In this document: positions 1-32,422 of the stretch, one piece after another | Numbering within the stretch: the stretch's first letter is position 1 | Layout: every line of letters starts with the position of its first letter | Assembly: GCA_913061495.1 (NCBI GenBank) | Contig: CAJXVG010000013.1 | Location: 1-32,422, forward strand | Source of the DNA: an uncultured Winogradskyella sp. | GTDB taxonomy: Bacteria; Bacteroidota; Bacteroidia; Flavobacteriales; Flavobacteriaceae | Direction: 5' to 3' | DNA: 32,422 bases | The notes under the pieces: model-generated | Databases searched by the model: none | What the model was told of the DNA's origin: nothing | The model's input: only the letters and a program-made list of their open reading frames with translations | Made by a program: the position numbers and the translations under genes

Positions 1-48
1 TCTACACGTAAGGAGTCGTCGGCAGCGTCAGATGTGTATAAGAGACAG
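1..48 (+). other. Nextera/Tn5 i5-side sequencing adapter (artefact)
   Basis: TCTACAC + 8-nt index GTAAGGAG + TCGTCGGCAGCGTC + mosaic end AGATGTGTATAAGAGACAG at the exact contig end. Confidence 0.99.
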
Positions 49-18250: not shown

Positions 18251-21200
18251 ATGGTTTCATGGTATTGTAGAATAATTGGTTCCTTAGTTATTTTTTGTTT
18301 CACTATATCTTCTCCATTTTTGGCTAATGGACAAGAGTCAGTACACGAAAAACCTTTTTCTTTTAATGCTTTAACAATCAATGATGGGTTGTCTCAAAAT
18401 AGTGTTATTAGTATTGCTCAAGACAGTATAGGACATTTATGGCTCGCTACACAAGATGGTTTAAACAAATATAATGGCAGGAGTTTTACATATTACGATA
18501 AACAGTTTGAAGATATTACAAGGCCTACGTTTAGTAAACTAGGGAAAATTTATTTTGATAAACAAAATCAGTTATGGATTATTACTAATTCTGGTAAATT
18601 AGAACTTTATAATTCAGAAACAGATGATTTTAAACATATAACTTCCTTTAGTAATGTTAGTACTATATTTCAAGATAAAAATTTAAACAGCTATATAGGT
18701 ACCTATGGTGAAGGTCTATTTAAAATAGATGCTAAAACCAAAGACACATTACAGGTATTTAAAACAGAAGACAAACATAAAACAGTATATGACTTTATTG
18801 AGAGAAACAACTCCATTATTGTTGCAACTACAGGCTCCGTTTATGAGTTTGAGAATAACAAAGCTTACAGAGAATTTAAGGTATCCACCCATAACAATGC
18901 CAATTTTAGTACTCTCGAAAAAGATAAAAATGAAACCATTTGGCTAGGCACTTATGGACAAGGGTTATATTATAAAAAAAGAAACAAAGATTTTTTTATA
19001 AAATACGAGCACAATGAATTACCTGAAGATTTAAATATTGAAGATCTGCTGATTGACAAAGAAAATAGATTGTGGATTGCCACTTATGGAAATGGTGCTT
19101 ATATAATAAACCAAAAAAACAACAGCCTAACAAATTTTAAAGCAAACAAAAATAACCCCTATGCTATTGATTATAATGACATGCTTTGCTTATTTGAAGA
19201 TTCTACTGGCATCATTTGGTTAGGATCGGATGGCACAGGCGCCAATTATTATGATGAGCATCTAATAAAATTTAATGTACTTACCAATAATCAAGTTCCT
19301 AAAAATGTAAATGTTGATGTCGCAAGAAGTATCAGTACTGATAATACAGGGAATTTATGGATAGGGACTTCTGGTAAAGGGCTAACTCAAATTAACTTTA
19401 AAACTAATAATTATAAAACATTCACAACAAAAAACTCTCCTCTAGTTAGTGATAGAATTATTAGCTTACTGCACAACAACAATAAGTTATGGATTAGGCA
19501 CCAAGGGTTTGGCCTCAATATTCTTAATAGCTATGGAGAATACGAAACTTTTCCTCAAATATCCAACCTCATTATTTGGCGAATAGTTAAAGAAAACAAT
19601 CAACAGAGCTGGCTTTGTACCGAGCGAAACGGTATTATTCTTTTCGATATAAATACTGGAATTATAAAACAATTTAACACCAATAATTCTTCATTGTTAA
19701 CCAATGATATTAGAGTTGTAACCAAAGGAGAAAACAGTAGTTTATGGATAGGAACCGAAGATGATGGTTTGTATAAATTAAACATAAAATCTGATAATCT
19801 CACTAAAGTTGAAACCGTTAACGGAAAGATTAAATCTTTGTATTATAATAATAACAACCTTTGGATAGGTACTAACGGAAAAGGTCTTAAAAAATACAAT
19901 ACTAAAAATAGCACTGTAAAAACTTATACCAAAGCTGACGGTTTGCCCAATAACGTAATTTACGGCATATTACCAGGTGATGATGGCAATTTGTGGTTAA
20001 GCACCAATTATGGCATAAGCAAGTTTAGTCACCAAACCGAAGATCATTTTGAAAACTACAGCAACTACGATGGTTTACAAGCTCTAGAGTTTAACACTGG
20101 TGCATACTATAAAGACAACAATGGTAATTTATATTTTGGTGGACTAGAAGGACTTAACTGGTTTAACCCAAATCAGTTAACATTCAACCCTGTAAAACCC
20201 AAAACCATCATTAGTAAATTTGAAATTTTCACTAAAAAACAACCATTAGATCAAAATATAGCTTATAAATTCAATGAGAATACGGTAATTTTTACATTTT
20301 CAAGTTTACATTTTTCACAGCCAGAACGTAATTTATATAAATACCTATTAGCTAATTATGATGAAAACTGGATTGAAGCAGGAAACACTAATACAGCACA
20401 TTATACAAATCTGCCACCTAATGACTATACATTCAAAGTAATTTCCAGTAATTATGATGGAGTTTGGAATGACACAGCAGCAACATATTCATTTACAATT
20501 AAACAACCATGGTACCTAAGCACAGTTGCTATAATATGCTATGTCCTTTTTATAATGACTGGCATTTATCTCATTTACCGTTACTTAAAATGGAGATGGC
20601 ATATGAAAATGCAGCTACAGTTTGAGCACAAAGAAACTGAACGATTAAAAAAACTTGATGAATTCAAAACACGGATTTACACTAATATCTCACATGAGTT
20701 TCGCACACCACTCACTTTAATTTCTGGACCTATTGAAAAACAATTATCAAAACCAAACCTTTCAGAAGACGATGTAAAGGAACTTTCGTTAGTGCAAAAC
20801 AATTCAAAACGATTATTGAATTTAGTTAACCAACTATTAGACCTATCAAAACTTGAGTCTGGCAATTTAAAATTATCCGTTAGTAAAGGAAACCTAACTG
20901 CCTTTTTTAAGCAGATAACCGCTGCTTTTAAATTTAAAGCAAAAGATAAGAATATTAGCTTTACGGATAACCTACAACCTATAAAGGAAGCTTGGTTTGA
21001 TATTGATGTTATAGAAAAAATAATAACCAATTTGTTATCTAATGCCATAAAATACACACCAGAAGACGGGAAAATTCATTTTGAAACCATTGAGAAAAAT
21101 GGACAGCTCATTATAACGGTTATTAACAATGGTAACACAATATCAGACGAAGAACTTGGCAAATTATTTCAAAGATATTACCAAAACAGCAAAAGTGCAG

Positions 21201-22183
21201 ATGGTGTGGGTATAGGTCTTTCTCTGGTAAAAGAATTAGCAATTTTATCGCATGGCAATATTGTGGCACATACCATGAACAAGGATGATATTCAGTTTAC
21301 TATAACTTTACCAATAGAGCGTTCATATTATGATATTTCTGAAATAAATGATGAGGAACAAATAATTAAAAACGCTAAAAGTACTTATAAAACACCAATA
21401 GAAAATGAACTAACATCAACGACAAAACAAGCAGACAAGCCAATACTTCTTATAGTTGAAGATGAAAAGGACATTAGAGAGTTTATAAGTTCAATTTTCA
21501 AAAATAGTTACAACATCAAAGAGGCCTCCAATGGAGAAAGCGGTATAAAAAAAGCTGTTAAGTACATACCAGATATTATAATCAGTGATATTATGATGCC
21601 AAAAACTGATGGCATAGAGCTCTGCAATACACTTAAAAATGACGAAAGAACCAGTCATATTCCAGTAATAATATTAACAGCAAAGAGTGGTGACACAAAC
21701 GAGATAAAAGGGTTAAAGACAGGAGCTGATGATTATGTTGTAAAACCATTTAATAGTGACAAACTTAAAATACGTGTTGAAAAACTCATAGAACTTAGAC
21801 AAAAACTACAACAACGCTACAGCAATAATTTTGAATTAAATGATATTAAAACAACACCTGTAGATCAACAGTTTTTAACCAAACTTGCAACGGTTTTAAA
21901 TGAGCATATTTCAGATTCTTCTTTCAATTCAAAAGATTTAGCAAAAAAAATGCTGTTGAGTAGAATGCAACTTCATAGAAAACTCAAAGCTATTACCGGT
22001 TTTTCTACAACCGAGTTTATACGTAATGAAAGATTAAAATTGGCCATTAATCTCCTAAAAGATTCTGACCAAACAATTTCTGAGATTGCTTATCAAATTG
22101 GCTTTAATAGTCCTTCGTATTTTATTAAATGCTTTAAGGATGTTTATAAAACTACCCCTTCGGAATTTTATTCAAAAAACTGA
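18251..22183 (+). CDS. Hybrid two-component system (HTCS): periplasmic propeller sensor, Y_Y_Y domain, histidine kinase, receiver and AraC-type DNA-binding domain in one polypeptide
   Basis: 1310 aa; signal sequence; repeated LWIGT..GL propeller blades; TM at ...VAIICYVLFIMTGIYLIYRYL; H-box ISHEFRTPLTLISGP; N-box ITNLLSNAIKYTP; GVGIGLSLVKEL; receiver LLIVEDEKDIREF...DIIISDIMMPKTDG...VVKPF; C-terminal AraC HTH (TISEIAYQIGFNSPSYFIKCFKDVYKTTPSEF). Confidence 0.95.
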   Translation: MVSWYCRIIGSLVIFCFTISSPFLANGQESVHEKPFSFNALTINDGLSQNSVISIAQDSIGHLWLATQDGLNKYNGRSFTYYDKQFEDITRPTFSKLGKIYFDKQNQLWIITNSGKLELYNSETDDFKHITSFSNVSTIFQDKNLNSYIGTYGEGLFKIDAKTKDTLQVFKTEDKHKTVYDFIERNNSIIVATTGSVYEFENNKAYREFKVSTHNNANFSTLEKDKNETIWLGTYGQGLYYKKRNKDFFIKYEHNELPEDLNIEDLLIDKENRLWIATYGNGAYIINQKNNSLTNFKANKNNPYAIDYNDMLCLFEDSTGIIWLGSDGTGANYYDEHLIKFNVLTNNQVPKNVNVDVARSISTDNTGNLWIGTSGKGLTQINFKTNNYKTFTTKNSPLVSDRIISLLHNNNKLWIRHQGFGLNILNSYGEYETFPQISNLIIWRIVKENNQQSWLCTERNGIILFDINTGIIKQFNTNNSSLLTNDIRVVTKGENSSLWIGTEDDGLYKLNIKSDNLTKVETVNGKIKSLYYNNNNLWIGTNGKGLKKYNTKNSTVKTYTKADGLPNNVIYGILPGDDGNLWLSTNYGISKFSHQTEDHFENYSNYDGLQALEFNTGAYYKDNNGNLYFGGLEGLNWFNPNQLTFNPVKPKTIISKFEIFTKKQPLDQNIAYKFNENTVIFTFSSLHFSQPERNLYKYLLANYDENWIEAGNTNTAHYTNLPPNDYTFKVISSNYDGVWNDTAATYSFTIKQPWYLSTVAIICYVLFIMTGIYLIYRYLKWRWHMKMQLQFEHKETERLKKLDEFKTRIYTNISHEFRTPLTLISGPIEKQLSKPNLSEDDVKELSLVQNNSKRLLNLVNQLLDLSKLESGNLKLSVSKGNLTAFFKQITAAFKFKAKDKNISFTDNLQPIKEAWFDIDVIEKIITNLLSNAIKYTPEDGKIHFETIEKNGQLIITVINNGNTISDEELGKLFQRYYQNSKSADGVGIGLSLVKELAILSHGNIVAHTMNKDDIQFTITLPIERSYYDISEINDEEQIIKNAKSTYKTPIENELTSTTKQADKPILLIVEDEKDIREFISSIFKNSYNIKEASNGESGIKKAVKYIPDIIISDIMMPKTDGIELCNTLKNDERTSHIPVIILTAKSGDTNEIKGLKTGADDYVVKPFNSDKLKIRVEKLIELRQKLQQRYSNNFELNDIKTTPVDQQFLTKLATVLNEHISDSSFNSKDLAKKMLLSRMQLHRKLKAITGFSTTEFIRNERLKLAINLLKDSDQTISEIAYQIGFNSPSYFIKCFKDVYKTTPSEFYSKN

Positions 22184-22207: not shown

Positions 22208-22272
22208 GTTACATAATTGTTATACTTTGTTACATAATTGACATCTCAATTTCCATTCTCAATATAATTTTA
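22208..22272 (+). promoter_or_regulatory. Candidate AraC/HTCS-type operator and promoter A
   Basis: Perfect 12-bp direct repeats GTTACATAATTG at 22208-22219 and 22229-22240 (21-bp pitch), then ATATAATTTTA (-7-like TAATTTTA at 22265-22272). Confidence 0.6.
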
Positions 22273-22320
22273 CAAACAAGCAATACGTCTCCTCTTTCGT
22301 ATTGTATCCCTTAACTAAAA

Positions 22321-22371
22321 TCGTCTAATTAAAAGCAACTGTATAATGCTGAAAAAACATCAATTAGACGA
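22321..22371 (+). promoter_or_regulatory. Inverted repeat spanning the start codon of the 47-aa ORF
   Basis: TCGTCTAATT (22321-22330) and AATTAGACGA (22362-22371), perfect 10-bp arms, 31-nt loop containing the ATG at 22346. Confidence 0.45.
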
Positions 22372-22489
22372 CACCAATAATAGCGAACAAAATATTTACA
22401 TAAGTATAGACCATTTAAAACATGGCAACTATACCATAAACATTCTACTAAACAATAAAGTTGTTAAATCTATTAATATCAATAAATAA
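22346..22489 (+). CDS. Small ORF (47 aa) resembling an isolated T9SS C-terminal sorting-domain tail; not in the supplied ORF track
   Basis: ATG...TAA encodes MLKKHQLDDTNNSEQNIYISIDHLKHGNYTINILLNNKVVKSININK; in-frame stop upstream at 22316; lies between promoter A and the next gene. Confidence 0.55.
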   Translation: MLKKHQLDDTNNSEQNIYISIDHLKHGNYTINILLNNKVVKSININK

Positions 22490-22523
22490 ATTTATGAAAC
22501 CGATAAAAACTTAAAAATAAAAC

Positions 22524-22865
22524 ATGAAATCAACACAAGTAAACACTACAACATCAGAAGGTAAAACCATAGCAATCATTGCTTATATAACCATTATAGG
22601 CCTCATCATTGCTTTTGTAATTAACAATGACAAAAAAAATGCCTTTGCAAAATATCATATTACACAATCCTTAGGCTTAGCTCTCACAGGACTTGCATTG
22701 GGTATTATTGGTCTTATTCCAATTTTAGGTTGGCTTATTAACATTATTGGCATTTTCATTTTACTGTATATGTGGATTATGGGACTTATTAGCGCCATCA
22801 ACGAAAAGGAAAAACCAGTACCTCTTTTGGGACAACACTATATAAAATGGTTTAACAAGATTTAA
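22524..22865 (+). CDS. Small DUF4870-like membrane protein
   Basis: 113 aa with hydrophobic segments IAIIAYITIIGLIIAFVI and LGIIGLIPILGWLINIIGIFILLYMWIMGLISA, plus NAFAKYHITQSLGL. Confidence 0.75.
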   Translation: MKSTQVNTTTSEGKTIAIIAYITIIGLIIAFVINNDKKNAFAKYHITQSLGLALTGLALGIIGLIPILGWLINIIGIFILLYMWIMGLISAINEKEKPVPLLGQHYIKWFNKI

Positions 22866-22876
22866 TATAAAACATC

Positions 22877-24484
22877 ATGAAAACAAAACACATCATATTA
22901 GTACTTATAGGCCTTTTTCTAAGCATAAATACAGATGCTCAAATTTTTAAAAAATTAAAAGAGAAAGCCAATAAAGCTTTAGGAATTGAATCTCACGAAG
23001 AATCATTAACGTTTGGCAATTCTGCTCTACAAATTAATACAGATGCTAAAAAGGCATTTTATAAAGAAGATGTTGTAATTGAAATGTTTGAAAACAACAA
23101 ACTAACTCAGACCCAATATTTTGACAAAGATGAAATTGCTGTTAGAATTGAAGATGAGAAAATTGTAAAATCTGGTTACAATGATAGCGAAGGATTCATT
23201 TATGCCTACAATAAAAAAACGGATCAATATGAAAAATTATCAATTGTAGCATTGCAAAGTCAAGGAATGATGGCTCCAACTATGATGCTTGAAGCCTATA
23301 AACTACCACCAGAACCATTTATGGCAAGCTTAGAAAAGCATACTAATCAAGGTTTAACTCCCAACCCTTTTAACGGTATTGTAGAATTTTCTTCTATTTA
23401 CAAACCTGAAAACTTTAGGCATAATGACTTTAAAGAATCTAAACTAAAAAGTAATGGAAAAACCTATACCAAGTTTGATTTTTATAACCAAGCTGGCCAT
23501 GAAGGAAGTTATGTACTTTTTGATGACAAGAATCGCTTAGTAGAAATTTACACCAATAAATCAACTACTAGCCAACCATCTGAGGGATTTTCAATGGATA
23601 TGATGCCACTGGGAGAAAGCCGAATTAAGTACGATTATAAACCCGTAGATGTAAAATTACCACCTGCTAAAGAAGTAAAAATGGCAGGACAAGGTATGAT
23701 GGAAATGATTTTTGGCTCTTTTAAAATAGATAAAAATAATGGCAATTCTGATGATGACGATTATGATACTTCCAAATCAAAAGGGATGGTAAAATCCATA
23801 AAAAAATCATTGAAGAACAACAAGATAACTAACGATATGCTGCCAGAATCTTACGATTTTGATTATGTCTATAAAACCACCTTTGTACAGAATTCTAAAA
23901 AATCAAACGCAATGGATATGAATTTTTTGGTTAACACTAAAAATGCAAATTACAATGGTGCTGAATATATCCTTAAAGAAAAAAAAGCCCAAGGCAAATC
24001 CATAATGATTTTTGATTTAGACCTTAATGCTATGGTTATGTTCATGGAATATGACAATCAAAAAATGTTACAAATACATTCAATACCTGAAGTTAAAGAC
24101 ATAAATAACCAAGTAGATTTTACGATAAAGGAATTACCGTCAAAAACTATTTTAGGCTTTAAGTGTACAGTGCTACAGCTAGAAAATGAAAAACATATTA
24201 TTAAAGCTTATCACACCAAAAATGCACCAATTTCATTAAGCAACTTCTTTGGGTTTAGTGGTTCTAAAGGTTCAAAAAACCTAAACCTTCCAGACATGAA
24301 ACCTAGATTACTAAAACAATTTGAAAATAGTCTAGTGATGGAAATGCAATATGAAGACAAAAAAAGGAAAAAGAACAATTTTGTTATTACAGCAAAATCC
24401 CTTGAGAAAGAACCTACAAAAATTAAAAAAACAGAATACGAAAGTATGAACATGTTTTCTGCTGGAAATATGTTCAAAAATTAA
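22877..24484 (+). CDS. Secreted/periplasmic protein, DUF4412-like C-terminal half
   Basis: Signal peptide MKTKHIILVLIGLFLSINTDAQ; C-terminal MVMFMEYDNQKMLQIHSI...TILGFKCTVLQLENEKHIIKAY resembles DUF4412 proteins; family not verified. Confidence 0.55.
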   Translation: MKTKHIILVLIGLFLSINTDAQIFKKLKEKANKALGIESHEESLTFGNSALQINTDAKKAFYKEDVVIEMFENNKLTQTQYFDKDEIAVRIEDEKIVKSGYNDSEGFIYAYNKKTDQYEKLSIVALQSQGMMAPTMMLEAYKLPPEPFMASLEKHTNQGLTPNPFNGIVEFSSIYKPENFRHNDFKESKLKSNGKTYTKFDFYNQAGHEGSYVLFDDKNRLVEIYTNKSTTSQPSEGFSMDMMPLGESRIKYDYKPVDVKLPPAKEVKMAGQGMMEMIFGSFKIDKNNGNSDDDDYDTSKSKGMVKSIKKSLKNNKITNDMLPESYDFDYVYKTTFVQNSKKSNAMDMNFLVNTKNANYNGAEYILKEKKAQGKSIMIFDLDLNAMVMFMEYDNQKMLQIHSIPEVKDINNQVDFTIKELPSKTILGFKCTVLQLENEKHIIKAYHTKNAPISLSNFFGFSGSKGSKNLNLPDMKPRLLKQFENSLVMEMQYEDKKRKKNNFVITAKSLEKEPTKIKKTEYESMNMFSAGNMFKN

Positions 24485-24519
24485 AAAATCAATTATTTAT
24501 AAACTTAAAATCAATAAAA

Positions 24520-24861
24520 ATGAAAACTAAAATCTCAAATTACATCTTAAAAACATTTGTATTAGTATTAATGATTTCTATGGCATTGGCCACAATAAGC
24601 TGTTCTAGCGATGATGGCGACGATGGTGATAATCCCAATGCAATCTGTAGTCAGCTCGCAACCTTTTCCCCAACATATCTTGATACATTCAACGCTTTTC
24701 AAACAAATCCCAATGCGGAAACCTGTAATGGTTTCCGAAACACTGTGCTAGATCTCATAAATGCTATTGAGAATTGCCCTGAGCTTGCAGAACAATATTC
24801 AGAGTTGGAAGAATCAGCCCAAGCTTGGACAGACTTGGATTGCTCACAAGATTTTGATTAG
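24520..24861 (+). CDS. Small putative lipoprotein, cysteine-containing
   Basis: Lipobox-like LATISC SSDDGDDGD followed by a short helical domain with four further Cys. Confidence 0.65.
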   Translation: MKTKISNYILKTFVLVLMISMALATISCSSDDGDDGDNPNAICSQLATFSPTYLDTFNAFQTNPNAETCNGFRNTVLDLINAIENCPELAEQYSELEESAQAWTDLDCSQDFD

Positions 24862-24932
24862 GAAAGTAAAGCTTTTTAATCGACTTGTAAATATGTTTAA
24901 AAAATTAAATAAAACCAAGAACACAAAATACA

Positions 24933-25442
24933 ATGAAAACAATCAAACTTTTTTTAGCAACTATGGTAATTTGTATGTTCACAACTACAAGTTTTTCACA
25001 AACCGAAACAAAATTAGGTGCGCTTTTAGCGTATGGTACCGAAATTGAAAACATAGGTGTTGGAGCAAATGCCGAATTTCCAATAATTGAAAAACTAACC
25101 ATATCACCATCCTTTATTTACTATCTGCCAAAAGATGAAAGTGGCATAAAAATTAACTGGTTTGAAGTTAACGCCAACGCCAACTATTATTTTTTAGATG
25201 AAGAAAATATTGATGTCTATGGCATTGGAGGTCTTAACTACACTAACGTTAAAGTAAAATATGACGGTGATTCCATTTTTGGTGATGACCTATCTGTTAG
25301 CGACGGTAGAATAGGCCTAAACTTAGGTGGTGGTACCAATTTTAACATTGGTAGTAACATTACTCCGTTTGCAGAATTAAAATATGTCATCATAGATGGC
25401 GGACAGCTTGTTATTGCTGCTGGTGTAAAATTTAATTTATAA
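24933..25442 (+). CDS. Outer-membrane beta-barrel protein
   Basis: Signal peptide ...TTSFSQTE; alternating amphipathic strands; ends LKYVIIDGGQLVIAAGVKFNL. Confidence 0.7.
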   Translation: MKTIKLFLATMVICMFTTTSFSQTETKLGALLAYGTEIENIGVGANAEFPIIEKLTISPSFIYYLPKDESGIKINWFEVNANANYYFLDEENIDVYGIGGLNYTNVKVKYDGDSIFGDDLSVSDGRIGLNLGGGTNFNIGSNITPFAELKYVIIDGGQLVIAAGVKFNL

Positions 25443-25493
25443 AAAATAAATCAAAATTTTAAACCCAAATATTAATCAATAAATATACACATT

Positions 25494-26534
25494 ATGAAAA
25501 CTTTAAAAATTACAATTTTTTGCACCTTAATAAGCTTTTTAAGCTTTTCACAAACGGTACACACAGTTGATAACCGAGATCAATCTGGTGCTCAATACAC
25601 AGATTTACAAACAGCTATAAATGCTGCAAGTGCAGGAGATATTATTCAATTGCATCCATCACCAAATACTTATGGATCCATTACTATTGATAAAATGCTC
25701 ACCATAATTGGACTTGGTCACAATCCTGCAAATTCCAATGGAGAAGTTGCAACAATTTTAAACATTACATTTATAAATAATTCGGCAAGTTCGGAAATTA
25801 AAGGCTTGACCTTTAATAGTATCAATTGTGGATTATCAACCACGAGTCCAAATCAAGATAACATGCACATTATTAATAATCGTATAAATGCATCAATAAC
25901 TGGTGCTTCCACCGACAATTTGAGTGATGCTTGGATCATTGAAGGCAATTACTTTACAAATACTTCTACTAATGTGAACTCTCAAAGTGGGACTAATGAT
26001 TGGCAGGTAAAGAATAATTTTGTAAGAGGTATAATTGTTAATTTAAACAATACCAGTATTGTTACCAATAATATTTTTCTAAGTACAGCAAGTTCTGATA
26101 CTTTTTTTTCAAACTGTCCTAGTCCAATGGTAAATAATAATATTTTCTTAGCTACTGGTACTTTAACTGAAATTGGGTTATCCAACTCCTCAATAACATT
26201 TGTAAGCAACATCACTTATAGTTATTTTGGTGCAACTATAGACCCTCTTTCAGGCAGTAACAATTTAGATAATACCGACCCTATGTTTGAAAATGTCCCT
26301 TTTGGATCTGTTACCGATTTTTACAATAACAACTTCAATTTAACTAGTGTTTCTCCAGGAGTTAATGCTGGTAGTGACGGAACAGATATAGGCCTATTTG
26401 GAAATAATTTTGTATTTGATCCCAACGGAAGACCTAACCTTACACCATATCCAGAAAGTATTACAATTACAAACAGTGTTGTTGCTCCAGGACAAACACT
26501 TAATGTGGACTTTACTGCAACTCAAAAACAATAA
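25494..26534 (+). CDS. Secreted right-handed beta-helix-like protein
   Basis: Signal peptide; YTDLQTAINAASAGDIIQLHPSPNTYGSITIDKMLTIIGLG (pectin-lyase-fold-like start), then N-rich coils. Confidence 0.65.
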   Translation: MKTLKITIFCTLISFLSFSQTVHTVDNRDQSGAQYTDLQTAINAASAGDIIQLHPSPNTYGSITIDKMLTIIGLGHNPANSNGEVATILNITFINNSASSEIKGLTFNSINCGLSTTSPNQDNMHIINNRINASITGASTDNLSDAWIIEGNYFTNTSTNVNSQSGTNDWQVKNNFVRGIIVNLNNTSIVTNNIFLSTASSDTFFSNCPSPMVNNNIFLATGTLTEIGLSNSSITFVSNITYSYFGATIDPLSGSNNLDNTDPMFENVPFGSVTDFYNNNFNLTSVSPGVNAGSDGTDIGLFGNNFVFDPNGRPNLTPYPESITITNSVVAPGQTLNVDFTATQKQ

Positions 26535-26536
26535 AG

Positions 26537-27538
26537 ATGAGACGTGTTTTACTTTTTCTTATTTTAAGTATTGGGCTGATTTATAATGGCTGGAGACAAA
26601 TTACAGCGGCTGAATATTTTATAGATTCTGATCCTGGTATAGGCAATGCCACTAACTTAACAGTTACAAATGGCAATACTATAAATAGTAATTTTAGTAT
26701 CCCAACCTCGGGATTAAGTAACGGATTACATGTACTTCATATTCGTGTTAAAGGCACTAATGATGTTTGGAGTTTGTACTATCGTGATTATTTTTACATT
26801 CTAACTATAGAGGCTCCTCCTATAGGTTCTAATTTGAGTGCAGCTGAATACTTTATAGATATAGATCCTGGTATTGGCAATGGTACTGCTTTGTCTATTT
26901 CATCTGTACAAATGCTAGATGACACATTTAGTATTCACACCACAGAACTTGATAATGGCTTACACGTACTTTACATGCGTGTAAAGGATTTAGATGATAC
27001 TTGGAGCTTGTATTATAGGGATTACTTCTATATTCAAACCATAAACAATTTAGTTTCAACACCTATTACTGATGCTGAATACTTTTTTGATACCGATCCA
27101 GGAGTTGGCAACGGCTTTTCTGTTCCTATAAATGAAGGCTTCACGGTTGACGAAACTTTAGCGATACCAGTTCCATTAGATATGACAGATGGAGACCATT
27201 ATTTGTACATACGTGTAAAAAACATGGATGATAATTGGTCTTTATACATATTTGCGCTTTTTAATGTAGATGGTAGTTTATCCGTAGAAAGCAATGAAGA
27301 TTCATCTTTTAAGGTTTTTCCAAACCCTACAAATACGCTATTGAATATTCAAATCCATACAGATTTAGACTATTCAATACAACTTTTTGATATTAATGGA
27401 AAGAAGTTAATTCGTACTAAAACTAATGGATCACTTCATAGGCTAGATTTTTCAAATTATCCTAAAGGTGTTTATTTGCTTCATATTACAGAGCAAAACA
27501 CCAACAAACTTAATGTTGTTAAAATAATTAAATCGTAG
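26537..27538 (+). CDS. Secreted protein with three AEYFID.DPGIGN...LHVLYMRVKD..WSLYYRDYFYI repeats and a T9SS type A sorting domain
   Basis: Repeats begin at AEYFIDSDPGIGN, AEYFIDIDPGIGN, AEYFFDTDPGVGN; CTD FKVFPNPTNTLLNIQI...LDFSNYPKGVYLLHITEQNTNKLNVVKIIKS. Confidence 0.8.
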   Translation: MRRVLLFLILSIGLIYNGWRQITAAEYFIDSDPGIGNATNLTVTNGNTINSNFSIPTSGLSNGLHVLHIRVKGTNDVWSLYYRDYFYILTIEAPPIGSNLSAAEYFIDIDPGIGNGTALSISSVQMLDDTFSIHTTELDNGLHVLYMRVKDLDDTWSLYYRDYFYIQTINNLVSTPITDAEYFFDTDPGVGNGFSVPINEGFTVDETLAIPVPLDMTDGDHYLYIRVKNMDDNWSLYIFALFNVDGSLSVESNEDSSFKVFPNPTNTLLNIQIHTDLDYSIQLFDINGKKLIRTKTNGSLHRLDFSNYPKGVYLLHITEQNTNKLNVVKIIKS

Positions 27539-27567
27539 AAGAATCAATTTGAGTAATCTTGTTCGAT

Positions 27568-27597
27568 AAATAAAGCCTCTATATAGAGGCTTTATTT
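27568..27597. terminator. Perfect palindromic terminator separating the two envelope operons
   Basis: AAATAAAGCCTCTATATAGAGGCTTTATTT, 30-bp perfect palindrome. Confidence 0.75.
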
Positions 27598-27853
27598 TAT
27601 AATTAATTTACCATAAAGCTGTGAAAATAAATATAAGTAAAAAGTTAATTTATCTTTTTCAAATTCTTGCATTACTAATCCAAATATTCTTGTGAAGAAT
27701 GTTATCCGATCCTTTTGTGTCCTAGTGACCCTACTATTTCTAGTGAAGAAATCGTCTTCTTCTTTCTACTATGAAATTTTAATGGTGTTTTTTTATAAAA
27801 ACTTCATAAACAGATTTTTAGATTCAAATAAATATCCTAAAACCTGTGGCTAT

Positions 27854-27918
27854 GTTACATAAATCATAGCATTTGATACAATAGTCATAGCCTAAAACTA
27901 TATCATAATATAATTTTG
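27854..27918 (+). promoter_or_regulatory. Candidate AraC/HTCS-type operator and promoter B
   Basis: GTTACATAAATCATAGCATTT (27854) and GATACAATAGTCATAGCCTAA (27875) match 14/21 at 21-bp pitch; TAATTTTG (27911-27918) is an exact TAnnTTTG -7 element. Confidence 0.6.
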
Positions 27919-27939: not shown

Positions 27940-28449
27940 ATGAACAACAAAAAAAACTATCAGATGAAAACACTACTCTTACTTCTCTGTCTCTTTGTCG
28001 GGCACAGTATTCAGGCACAGACCATTGAACAGCATACTTTCGCAAATGTGGGAGGTGTACTAAACAACAGCAGTAACTCACTTCAGTTTACTATTGGCGA
28101 ACCAATTATTGATCTCATAGGGACAGACGCTTCATTAGACCAAGGTTTCTGGGCTATCTCGGGCTCACGCTATACATTGAGTATTGACACTAGCACTATG
28201 GAAGACTTTGAAATAACAGTTTACCCCAATCCTGTTAAAGATTTTCTAACTATCCAAATGAACCAAATTTTACCTTATGAAGTATCTATTTACAACGTAT
28301 TAGGACAAAAGGTTTTAGAAGAGAATATGTTCTTTGGAGGGGCTTATTCTAACATCAATTTGAGTACGCTGAGTAGAGGGAACTATTTAGTGAGACTGTC
28401 TATACCTGAGTTGCAAATTAACAAAACCATTAAAATCATTAAAAACTAA
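27940..28449 (+). CDS. Small T9SS type A sorting domain protein
   Basis: MKTLLLLLCLFVGHSIQAQ signal; QHTFANVGGVLNNSSNSLQFTIGEPIIDLIGTDASLDQGFWAISG; CTD ITVYPNPVKDFLTIQM...IYNVLGQKVLE...NINLSTLSRGNYLVRL...KIIKN. The ORF-track start (27916, TTG) overlaps the -7 element, so a later ATG (27940 or 27964) is preferred. Confidence 0.85.
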   Translation: MNNKKNYQMKTLLLLLCLFVGHSIQAQTIEQHTFANVGGVLNNSSNSLQFTIGEPIIDLIGTDASLDQGFWAISGSRYTLSIDTSTMEDFEITVYPNPVKDFLTIQMNQILPYEVSIYNVLGQKVLEENMFFGGAYSNINLSTLSRGNYLVRLSIPELQINKTIKIIKN

Positions 28450-28453
28450 AGTT

Positions 28454-29674
28454 ATGACTTTCAAAATTACAATCCGAAATATCTTGGCGACAATGGCTTT
28501 GCTCATATCAAGCATCGTTTATAGCCAGCAACAACAAAAATATATTAACTATCAAGGAGTAGCAAGAGATGCCAGTAATGAGCTTATTGTCAGTCAATCT
28601 ATAAACATTGAGGTTGCGCTAAGGTTTGGCACAACATCTGGTGCTGCCTTGTATGCAGAAACACATACAGTAACTACAGATGGAAGCGGTGTGTTTAGCC
28701 TTCTTATAGGGAATGGTACGGTGCTAAACGGTGTTTACAATAATCTTGAATGGGGTGTTCTTGCACCTTACGCAACCATTAGCTTAAATGGTACCGAAGT
28801 AGGCACTGTAGAACTATATGCTGTGCCTTATTCTAACGCTAGCGGTAAAGCTACGGATATGGAAATTAACGATCTTACCAATGTAGAAGGCATGCCTCTA
28901 AACGGGCAAGTACTTAAATATAATGGCACTAGTTGGGAACCTAGTTCTGGCGGAGCTTCTACTTGGACTCAAGAAGGAGATAATATTTATTATAATAATG
29001 GTAATGTAGGTATCAATAACTCTAACCCTTCTGCTAATTTAGATGTAGTAAATGAAGAGAACGGTTTTGCTAATGCGGTGGGCGTTCTTAGCGAAATTTC
29101 TGGTGGAGCAACAACACAAATTGGTTTTAGCACAGAAGTTTCTAACGGTATTGCATTCAAATATGGCTATAAATCAAATATAATAAATAACTCATCATCA
29201 CCATCATATGGGTTCCACTCTACTACGTCTGGAAATGGTAATCAGAATTATGGTATTTATACTACGGGTGAGGATGGAAATTATTTTTCAGGAAATATAG
29301 GGTTGGGAGTACAATTTCCCTCCGAAAAAATTGATGTAGATGGTAATATTAAAGTTACCGGAGAAGTAAACCGACCTTCCACAGGTTCTGCTAATATGGT
29401 ACCCATTGCGTATGGCAATGTTAGGGCTGATGGAACAGTCGCTGCAGGTACAGGTAATTTTACAGTAGATAAGTTGGGTTATGCCTATGATATAACTGTT
29501 AATGGCGAGTCCATAAATACTGAAAACTATATCATAACATCTCAAGCACAATTATTTTACCAAGAGACAGTTTTATCTGTAGCCAACGATGGTATATTAA
29601 GAATTCTTATTTCCGATGATGCATCAACAACTAATATTGGTGGTCCTTTCTATTTTATAATTTATAAGCCATAA
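28454..29674 (+). CDS. Tail-fibre-like secreted protein, copy 1
   Basis: Signal ...LISSIVYSQ; KYINYQGVARDASNELIVSQSINIEVALRFG; LNGQVLKYNGTSWEPS; NGNVGINNSNPSANLDV; C-terminal EVNRPSTGSANMVPIAYGNV...FIIYKP. Confidence 0.75.
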   Translation: MTFKITIRNILATMALLISSIVYSQQQQKYINYQGVARDASNELIVSQSINIEVALRFGTTSGAALYAETHTVTTDGSGVFSLLIGNGTVLNGVYNNLEWGVLAPYATISLNGTEVGTVELYAVPYSNASGKATDMEINDLTNVEGMPLNGQVLKYNGTSWEPSSGGASTWTQEGDNIYYNNGNVGINNSNPSANLDVVNEENGFANAVGVLSEISGGATTQIGFSTEVSNGIAFKYGYKSNIINNSSSPSYGFHSTTSGNGNQNYGIYTTGEDGNYFSGNIGLGVQFPSEKIDVDGNIKVTGEVNRPSTGSANMVPIAYGNVRADGTVAAGTGNFTVDKLGYAYDITVNGESINTENYIITSQAQLFYQETVLSVANDGILRILISDDASTTNIGGPFYFIIYKP

Positions 29675-30285
29675 GTCATACTATTGCTTGCTAACCGAAC
29701 AAGCCTAATTAATAATAAATTTTAGATTAAGGTAGAAGAATAAAACCCTTTATCAATTCATAAAAACTAAAATCATGACAATATTTAAAAAAATCAAAAA
29801 CACATTAGCTTTATTGGCATTGCTCATATCTAGCATTGTTTTTAGTCAACAGCAACAAAAATATATTAACTACCAAGGAGTAGCAAGAGATGCTAGTGAT
29901 GAGGTTATTGCAAGTCAACCTATAGACATCCAGGTTGCATTGAGGTTTGGCACAACTGCAGGTGCTGCTGCCTATACAGAAACACATACAGTAACTACAG
30001 ATGTAAGCGGCGTGTTTAGCCTACAAATAGGAAACGGAACCGTATTAAACGGTGTTTATAACAATCTTGAATGGGGTGTTCTTGCTCCTTACGCAACCAT
30101 TAGCCTAAACGGCACTGAAGTAGGCACTGTAGAACTGCAATCCGTGCCTTATGCCAACGCCAGCGGTAAAGCCAAGGATATGGAAATCAATGACCTTACC
30201 AATGTGGATGGCATGCCAACAAACGGGCAAGTCCTTAAATATAATGGCACTAGTTGGGAGCCAAGTACTGATGAAACTAGTACTG
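28493..30285 (+). repeat. Tandem gene duplication: conserved 5' module (about 28493-28965 and about 29814-30285)
   Basis: Long identical nucleotide runs shared by both genes (e.g. GAAACACATACAGTAACTACAGATG, AATCTTGAATGGGGTGTTCTTGC, TATAATGGCACTAGTTGGGA). Confidence 0.8.
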
Positions 30286-31274
30286 GCGGAACTTCTTCCT
30301 GGACAGAAAGTGGAGACGATATTTATTATAATGATGGTAATGTGGGTATAAATAACACTAACCCTTTAGCTAATTTAGATATTGAAGGAAACATTATTCT
30401 ACGAAATGACTTTTTTACAGACAGCAGAACAGGAATTACGATATATGGTAATGGTGATGCTCCCTTATCGGCTAGTGGAATAAATACCGTTATAAATCCA
30501 GAAGGAGATGGACATGTATGGAGCTATAATTCATCTATTGGAGGTAATGCTACTGGAAACAAATATGGTTATGAAACAACTATTATCACAAATGCAACTG
30601 GAACTCAATATGGGTTTAGCGCAGACCTTACCAATAGTAGCCCAAGTACAAAATATGGTATTTCAACACTAGGTGAAGATAGAAATTATTTCTCTGGAAA
30701 TGTTGGTATAGGAGATTCAAATCCTGATGCGAAACTTCATGTTAGGTCTAGCTCAACTGGTGATAATCCTCAACTATTACTTGAAGAAATTGGCACCAAC
30801 AGTTTTAGTTCAATAAAATTTACTAATGGTAATTCTACAGCAAGTTCTAATTATTGGAGAATGAATGTCTATAGTGGAGATGCTGCAGAAGAGCGAATTC
30901 TTTTCTACAATAGGGATGCTGGTAAAGATGTAGTAGAAATAAGACCAGAGGCGGTAGTAATTGATGCAGAGGTAAACCGTCCGTCTACCGGTAATGCCAA
31001 CATGCTGCCTATTGCTTATGGCTATGTTGACTCTGATGGTACTGTTATAAATGGGAGTGGTAATTTTACGGTTCAAAGATTGAGTCTTGGAAGTTATATA
31101 GTTACTATAAATGGTGAGTCAATAACAGAAGAAGATTACATTTTCTTTGGTAATTCAAGATTCTCTAATATCAATTTTGCTGCGGTTAACAATTTATTAG
31201 AGATAAAAACATTTAGTAATAGTAATAATAACTTTATTGGACAAGAATTTTCATTTATTATTTACAAACCTTGA
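29775..31274 (+). CDS. Tail-fibre-like secreted protein, copy 2 (paralogue of the preceding gene)
   Basis: Near-identical N-terminal about 180 aa to copy 1; NVGIGDSNPDAKLHVRSSSTGDNPQLLLEE module; C-terminal EVNRPSTGNANMLPIAYGYV...FIIYKP. Confidence 0.75.
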   Translation: MTIFKKIKNTLALLALLISSIVFSQQQQKYINYQGVARDASDEVIASQPIDIQVALRFGTTAGAAAYTETHTVTTDVSGVFSLQIGNGTVLNGVYNNLEWGVLAPYATISLNGTEVGTVELQSVPYANASGKAKDMEINDLTNVDGMPTNGQVLKYNGTSWEPSTDETSTGGTSSWTESGDDIYYNDGNVGINNTNPLANLDIEGNIILRNDFFTDSRTGITIYGNGDAPLSASGINTVINPEGDGHVWSYNSSIGGNATGNKYGYETTIITNATGTQYGFSADLTNSSPSTKYGISTLGEDRNYFSGNVGIGDSNPDAKLHVRSSSTGDNPQLLLEEIGTNSFSSIKFTNGNSTASSNYWRMNVYSGDAAEERILFYNRDAGKDVVEIRPEAVVIDAEVNRPSTGNANMLPIAYGYVDSDGTVINGSGNFTVQRLSLGSYIVTINGESITEEDYIFFGNSRFSNINFAAVNNLLEIKTFSNSNNNFIGQEFSFIIYKP

Positions 31275-31328: not shown

Positions 31329-31364
31329 AAAAAGCTTCAGAAATAAAATTCTGAAGCTTTTTTT
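31329..31364. terminator. Bidirectional terminator between the tail-fibre-like operon (+) and the helicase-like gene (-)
   Basis: AAAAAGCTTCAGAA / TTCTGAAGCTTTTT hairpin with T/A tracts on both sides. Confidence 0.85.
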
Positions 31365-32374
31365 ATTTTGATAAATCCTCAAGAACTAATCGAATTTCAC
31401 CATATGAGTATTTATCATCCAATTGGTATTTTAAATCAGAAAGATTTTCGAAGGTTTTTGTTGGAATAATTTTCTTTAGTTCTTTATAATGATCCTTAGA
31501 CATTAAATCAGTAATTGAAACTTCACCTGAAGAAATAAAGCTTGCCAAATGCCCAATTATAGTGTTAGCATTTAACTCTCGCTCCACGGCTATTTGGTCA
31601 ATTGATTTTCTGGCTTTAAATAATTCTAAAGAAATTTTCTTGGTATCTCCTTTTTTCCTTTTTGGTTTTAGGTTTTCTAAAACGGAAATATTGTTTGAAG
31701 TTTCAATATCGTTTTCATCACAATAATCTACAATAACCCTTAATATGTCAGTTCCATATTTTTCAATTCTGGTTTTACCCATACCATGGATTTGCTTCAA
31801 TTCTTGTTTGTTGGTTGGTAACATTTCACACATTGCATAAAGCGATTTTTGAGTGAATATTTGAAAATGAACCAGATCTTCTCGTTCAGCTATTTGGTTT
31901 CTCAATTCTCTTAGCAATTCAAAGAGTTTAATATTTGTGGTGCCGTCAATGATTGTTTTTCGTTGTTTCTTAGGTTTGTCTTTTGCCAAAAACACTGATT
32001 TTGCCCTAAGATTTAAAAATTGATGAGTATCAAATCCTTTTTCTAAACCTTCAAAATATAATAGTTTGGTTGCTAACAATTCATCTAAAACATCAATCTG
32101 CTTACTAATATCCTTTTCTATGGATTTGTTGTCTGTGGTAAAGCTTAGATCTTTTAAAGAGGTTTCTATCGTTGACTTAGTTTGTCCTTTAAAATATGTA
32201 ATAGCCTTAATAAACCGACTTTGTAATGGTTCACTCGTTTCTGGTATTTCGGAAACTTCAATTATTATTTTTAATTGAGAATTAAATGACGTACTTACTT
32301 TAAGTAAATTGGTTACACTATCCTTGAGTATTGTTAAAGGTGTTTCTACATTACCTTCTATGCTCCCTCTATTC
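31363..32374 (-). CDS. C-terminal part of an HRDC/helix-turn-helix domain protein (helicase-like), N-terminus missing at the contig end
   Basis: HRDC-like LFELLRELRNQIAEREDLVHFQIFTQKSLYAMCEMLPTNKQELKQIHGMGKTRIEKYG; C-terminal HTH-like KKISLELFKARKSIDQIAVERELNANTIIGHLASFISSGEVSITDLM. The ORF-track MGSEMCIRDR start is adapter-derived. Confidence 0.75.
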
Positions 32375-32422
32375 CTGTCTCTTATACACATCTCCGAGCC
32401 CACGAGACCGAGGCTGATCTCG
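32375..32422 (+). other. Nextera/Tn5 i7-side sequencing adapter (artefact)
   Basis: CTGTCTCTTATACACATCT CCGAGCCCACGAGAC + 8-nt index CGAGGCTG + ATCTCG at the exact contig end. Confidence 0.99.

Follow-up and report, generated by a model that had tools for sequence, protein, structure and literature searches.

Do two promoters of matching geometry in one Winogradskyella locus answer to the same regulator? The window, by which we mean the whole 32,422-nucleotide stretch of DNA analysed, carries the gene of HTCS1 (18251..22183, +; 1310 aa), in which a sensor region (Reg_prop propeller and Y_Y_Y), HisKA, HATPase, receiver and AraC-type HTH (Pfam) lie on one polypeptide, as defines an HTCS. The first-pass annotation described two 21-bp repeats downstream of this gene, each with a -7 element at a fixed offset, and its positions are exact. 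In promoter A, the half-site GTTACATAATTG starts at 22208 and 22229; in promoter B, GTTACATAAATC starts at 27854 and GATACAATAGTC at 27875. The TAAT of ATATAATTTT lies at 22265 (A) and 27911 (B), each 57 bp from the first half-site. Operator A (22208..22243, +), HTCS1's own, thus reads GTTACATAA-N12-GTTACATAA, a 21-bp direct repeat with a distal AT box, and operator B (27854..27889, +) reads GTTACATAA-N12-GATACAATA. Their -7 elements are TAATTTTA (22265..22272, +) and, from its sequence and the model match, TAATTTTG (27911..27918, +), exactly +57 in each case. The TAnnTTTG form ascribed to both promoters holds for B but not for A, and the site-A element of most relatives is likewise TAnnTTTA. 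A 7-bp inverted repeat, GGCTATG...CATAGCC, brackets both half-sites of B (window 27847-27891) and is not seen at A.

For B. thetaiotaomicron, HTCS motifs were predicted to be direct repeats with a mean separation of 21 bp, and in one motif class, e.g. HTCS_Rgu-1, sites of 12 bp flank a 9-bp spacer (Ravcheev et al. 2013, PMC3878776), an arrangement that recurs here. A and B are likewise direct repeats about 21 bp apart upstream of the genes they would regulate. This agreement, together with the retention of A beside an HTCS gene, supports the view that both are HTCS-type operators. The sigma-A -7 box of Flavobacterium spans -12 to -5 (PMC9723704); on that footing, transcription start sites (TSSs) are predicted at about 22277 and 27923, and the -33 region would be covered by the proximal half-site.

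The paired repeats are not a product of chance. A genome-wide motif search of the kind envisaged by the first-pass annotation finds the full arrangement with its -7 element only at A and B: GWTACA-N15-GWTACA-N28..32-TANNTTT has exactly two matches in the 3,223,733-bp genome and none in the reversed-pattern control. Because this pattern was fitted to A and B themselves, we made a held-out test with R1, a sequence-only profile of 13 orthologous sites from other genomes that leaves out both window sites. Scanned over the whole genome, R1 finds A (46.2 bits, E 1e-11) and B (29.2 bits, E 2.5e-6) and nothing else convincing, the next-best match being a partial one of 15.5 bits. One might still suppose that the repeats are accidents, or features general to promoters in so AT-rich a genome, as half-site pairs alone, with three mismatches allowed, are no commoner than in controls (15 genome matches against 23 in the reversed control). 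This reading is very improbable given the held-out E values, the columns that stay invariant across genera, and the 57 sites, against one in reversed sequence, that the long repeat with fixed -7 spacing yields in 768 kb of related loci. The signal is carried by that long repeat and spacing, not by the half-sites alone.

Conservation of site A is extensive. Sites from 13 other genomes align with it without gaps, including the +57 element, and the ACA, TG, ACA, TA and TT columns are invariant in this 13-site alignment (A1). Orthologues of the 535-aa gene downstream were found in five genomes of the same genus and 11 of other Flavobacteriaceae, with an orthologue of HTCS1 directly upstream in 11 of the 16 loci. 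Right after the HTCS stop codon these loci carry GTTACATA(A/T)GT-N9-GTTACATA(A/T)GT, and a -7 TAnnTTTA begins 57 bp from the first G of the operator. Three loci (L067, L070 and L073) have no neighbouring HTCS but keep the operator in front of the 535-aa gene. The alignment of orthologous intergenic regions thus bears out the expectation that A, directly after the HTCS gene, is kept across Flavobacteriaceae. R1 found one to four sites in most relatives, many of the secondary ones coming after other HTCS genes; relatedness among the genomes inflates site counts.

The assignment of B is a different matter. The window's genome has one close paralogue of the HTCS1 DNA-binding domain (52%), that of HTCS2, an 874-aa HTCS on contig C272 with the same set of defining domains and TPR in place of the propeller. 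The HTH1 recognition helix, SRMQLHRKLKA, is identical in the two proteins and HTH2 differs (GFN[TS]PSYF vs GFNDHSYF), which fits a shared GTTACAT and a divergent second box. HTCS2's own operator starts at C272:2768 and is 21-bp spaced (GTTACAATTGTTACAAGGTTGGTTACC). Just inside it the contig ends in a Nextera adaptor, so HTCS2's operon in this genome is unseen. At the HTCS2 loci of other Winogradskyella, the HTCS2 gene is followed by an operator and in many cases, farther along, by another, of the pattern GTTACATAA-gTcAtA-N4-TTG-GTTACAATA-gTaATA. Both HTCS types occur in W. marina and W. thalassocola. With R2, a profile built from HTCS2 operators with the window excluded, the preference of R1 is turned round: B is the best match in the genome (45.3 bits) and A the runner-up (21.4 bits). 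Two further R2 matches were not taken as sites: C32:1354 falls within a coding sequence, and at C43:12626, in a cluster of ribosomal-protein and nusG-like genes, the match is partial. Leave-one-out classification assigned 13/14, 15/15 and 12/13 known sites correctly and gave A -21 bits (HTCS1) and B +15 bits (HTCS2). Some second sites at HTCS2 loci had been chosen with an HTCS1-derived matrix and stem from related genomes, so that the counts overstate independence. The proposal that the adjacent HTCS1 controls both operons is thus probably wrong, since B classifies with the operators of a second HTCS that is present in this genome; two sister regulators account better for the evidence than a single one.

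The history of the B operon is relevant here. Its first gene encodes a small T9SS type A CTD protein (27964..28449, +; PF18962 / TIGR04183) that could start at ATG 27940 or 27964; the listed TTG at 27916 precedes the predicted TSS. Two secreted fibre-like proteins of 406 and 499 aa follow (28454..31274, +). Their N-terminal regions weakly resemble the mosaic adhesive trimer fibres of Bdellovibrio (PMC10769870; NF053851), with scores of 26.3 and 30.5 bits that fall below the cut-off of 60. The C-terminal part of a helicase gene (31363..32403, -; tblastn 68-73% identity to relatives) comes next. A gap of 87-128 bp is all that lies between the 333-aa T9SS gene and the helicase in W. marina, W. 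thalassocola and W. psychrotolerans, and in W. epiphytica the helicase likewise lies downstream of operon A; in the window, about 3.8 kb including operon B separate the two. Because operon B is absent from this position in all four relatives, it looks inserted. Four other members of the genus have an orthologue of its first gene. Only the orthologue in genome G003 is preceded by the operator, and it is part of an HTCS2 locus; no HTCS1-type gene turned up in that genome in the genus search. The lack of the operator at the other three suggests that recruitment was lineage-specific. Seven HTCS2 loci (L130, L131, L182, L183 and L187-L189) encode long runs of secreted INYKALIKDD paralogues, relatives of the 406- and 499-aa proteins, interspersed with other secreted proteins and lipoproteins.

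Two other accounts of B can be set against control by HTCS2. HTCS1 alone might govern A and B as a single signalling-to-surface regulon: B is only 5.6 kb from HTCS1, the HTH1 recognition helices are identical, and R1, which derives from HTCS1 sites, places B far above background, so that HTCS1 may bind there. In W. epiphytica, moreover, a secondary site precedes a T9SS gene and the genus search found no HTCS2, which suggests that HTCS1-type regulators can act on second promoters. We nevertheless consider sole control by HTCS1 unlikely, because B fits HTCS2 operators 16 bits better and is classed with them, HTCS2 exists in this genome, the B operon appears to be an insertion next to operon A, and the one operator-bearing orthologue sits in an HTCS2 locus. 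Less likely still is that B came in together with its operon and survives as a relic outside effective HTCS control. The apparent insertion, the degenerate second half-site (GATACAATA) and the missing operator at three of four orthologous genes are what a relic would leave, but both half-sites, the ATA boxes and a consensus -7 at exactly +57 have all been kept, and at 45 bits B matches its own class about as well as A does.

Downstream of A, after the small ORF discussed below, come a 113-aa membrane protein (22524..22865, +), called DUF4870-like because one scanned downstream protein in relatives matches that family, the ORF itself having no Pfam match, and a 535-aa secreted protein (22877..24484, +), whose full-length homologues, as seen in Meridianimaribacter, carry a C-terminal DUF4412; its predicted structure was of low confidence (pLDDT 53) and was not used. 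The rest of the operon (24520..27538, +) encodes a lipoprotein (from 24520), an OMP beta-barrel (24933), a 346-aa secreted protein (25494) and the 333-aa T9SS CTD protein (26537). Gene order is largely kept in W. marina, W. thalassocola and W. psychrotolerans. Among 91 proteins encoded downstream of the small ORF at 34 loci, DUF4412 (14), T9SS CTD (12) and mosaic-adhesive/YadA/S74 fibre domains are commonest. Neither the 10 window proteins nor the 25 families listed for these 91 include SusC/SusD, and a single GH16 is the only glycoside hydrolase family listed; the pairing of SusC/SusD with carbohydrate-active enzymes that marks a PUL-type HTCS regulon is thus not found. These domain scans agree with the first-pass view of secreted and envelope targets without SusC/SusD. 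Four distant Winogradskyella HTCSs that lack the small protein and the operator (L173-L176) adjoin secreted VGVGNTD proteins, a hint of other non-PUL HTCS systems.

HTCSs are known mainly as switches of glycan utilization, and the present proteins would form a conserved non-PUL subfamily in marine Flavobacteriaceae with operators that suggest control over secreted fibres, DUF4412 proteins and the cargo of T9SS. Like the HTCS regulons of B. thetaiotaomicron, these would be small and include operons near the HTCS gene, and their operators are direct repeats about 21 bp apart of the kind that AraC-type HTCS output domains are predicted to bind. Unlike those regulons, which cover glycan-utilization loci encoding SusC/SusD and enzymes that degrade glycans, they have T9SS, DUF4412, fibre and lipoprotein targets, a fixed +57 spacing to the -7 element and a small protein encoded first after the HTCS's own operator. 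The fixed operator-promoter geometry is precise enough for regulon prediction, and paralogues with matching first and differing second recognition helices offer a direct test of AraC-domain specificity.

That small protein, sm, is a 47-aa ORF (MLKKHQLDDTNNSEQNIYISIDHLKHGNYTINILLNNKVVKSININK; 22346..22489, +), the first of the A transcript, between operator A and the 113-aa gene. It falls below the 80-aa limit of the first ORF list and is absent from the first-pass annotation. Almost all HTCS-own operators, whether of HTCS1 or HTCS2 type, are followed by a homologue; the secondary operators never are. In a blind test, 85,462 species genomes were searched with the sm peptide only. All 46 loci recovered in this way have an HTCS upstream (within about 225 bp in 43) and the 21-bp/+57 operator in between. 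By contrast, none of 10 more distant HTCSs (38-41% identity) has sm or the operator, and these ten split from the rest with 99% support in a midpoint-rooted quick tree. A search of phages found no sm. W. thalassocola and W. psychrotolerans (L050 / L051) have two tandem HTCS1-type genes, each followed by its own operator and sm.

In close pairs of sm genes pN/pS is about 0-0.26 and third codon positions vary most; by these measures, sm is under purifying selection. AlphaFold2 confidently predicts a beta-hairpin at residues 28-46 (pLDDT 80), the predicted structure has no significant PDB match, and no Pfam or NCBIfam family reaches its cut-off. The 20-sequence alignment of sm was too divergent for a contig scan, for which a 9-sequence set was used. 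Twelve of 20 sm proteins weakly resemble the last strands of the T9SS type A sorting domain (Por_Secre_tail, PF18962; best E 1.2e-4), the best match seen scoring 22.4 bits against a cut-off of 27. At 42-50 aa, sm proteins cover less than half of that domain, with no evident signal peptide or cargo. The literature searched, mostly outside subscription journals, contains no description of an sm-like small protein associated with an HTCS. We regard sm as a concrete candidate for a new class of HTCS partner. Its constant linkage favours a role together with the HTCS, on which it would most likely act back as a feedback element or adaptor. More speculatively, a subfamily of Flavobacteriaceae HTCSs with propeller or TPR sensors and a dedicated cytoplasmic protein of about 47 aa that resembles the end of a T9SS sorting domain could use such feedback to monitor secretion of the T9SS and surface proteins it induces, a possibility that we rate as rather doubtful.

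On the evidence as a whole, we think it reasonably probable that both promoters are targets of one HTCS subfamily, A through HTCS1 and B most likely through HTCS2, with sm as feedback element or adaptor. An inner-membrane sensor kinase that carries its own receiver and AraC-type DNA-binding domain would, once phosphorylated, place two DNA-binding domains head-to-tail on the same face of the helix, at GTTACAT half-sites with 21-bp spacing. Of the two, the proximal one (about -48 to -31) would overlap the -33 region and recruit sigma-A to the -7 element at +57, switching the operon on. From its own operator A, HTCS1 would drive sm, DUF4870, the 535-aa protein, the lipoprotein, the porin and the T9SS genes. 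The apparently inserted B operon would most likely respond to HTCS2, with possible cross-binding by HTCS1. The first product of each HTCS's own operon would be sm, most likely acting back on that HTCS. Both HTCS1 and HTCS2, as judged from their sequences, share the SHIP motif of the receiver alpha3-beta4 loop with the HTCS REC-DBD auto-inhibition system (PMC11253607).

A minor observation concerns the assembly. Nextera transposase adaptor (CTGTCTCTTATACACATCT and flanks) is left at window 1-48 and 32375-32422 and at both ends of C272 (G000:C272), and this leftover adaptor creates false ORF ends such as SYTHLTLPTTPYV.
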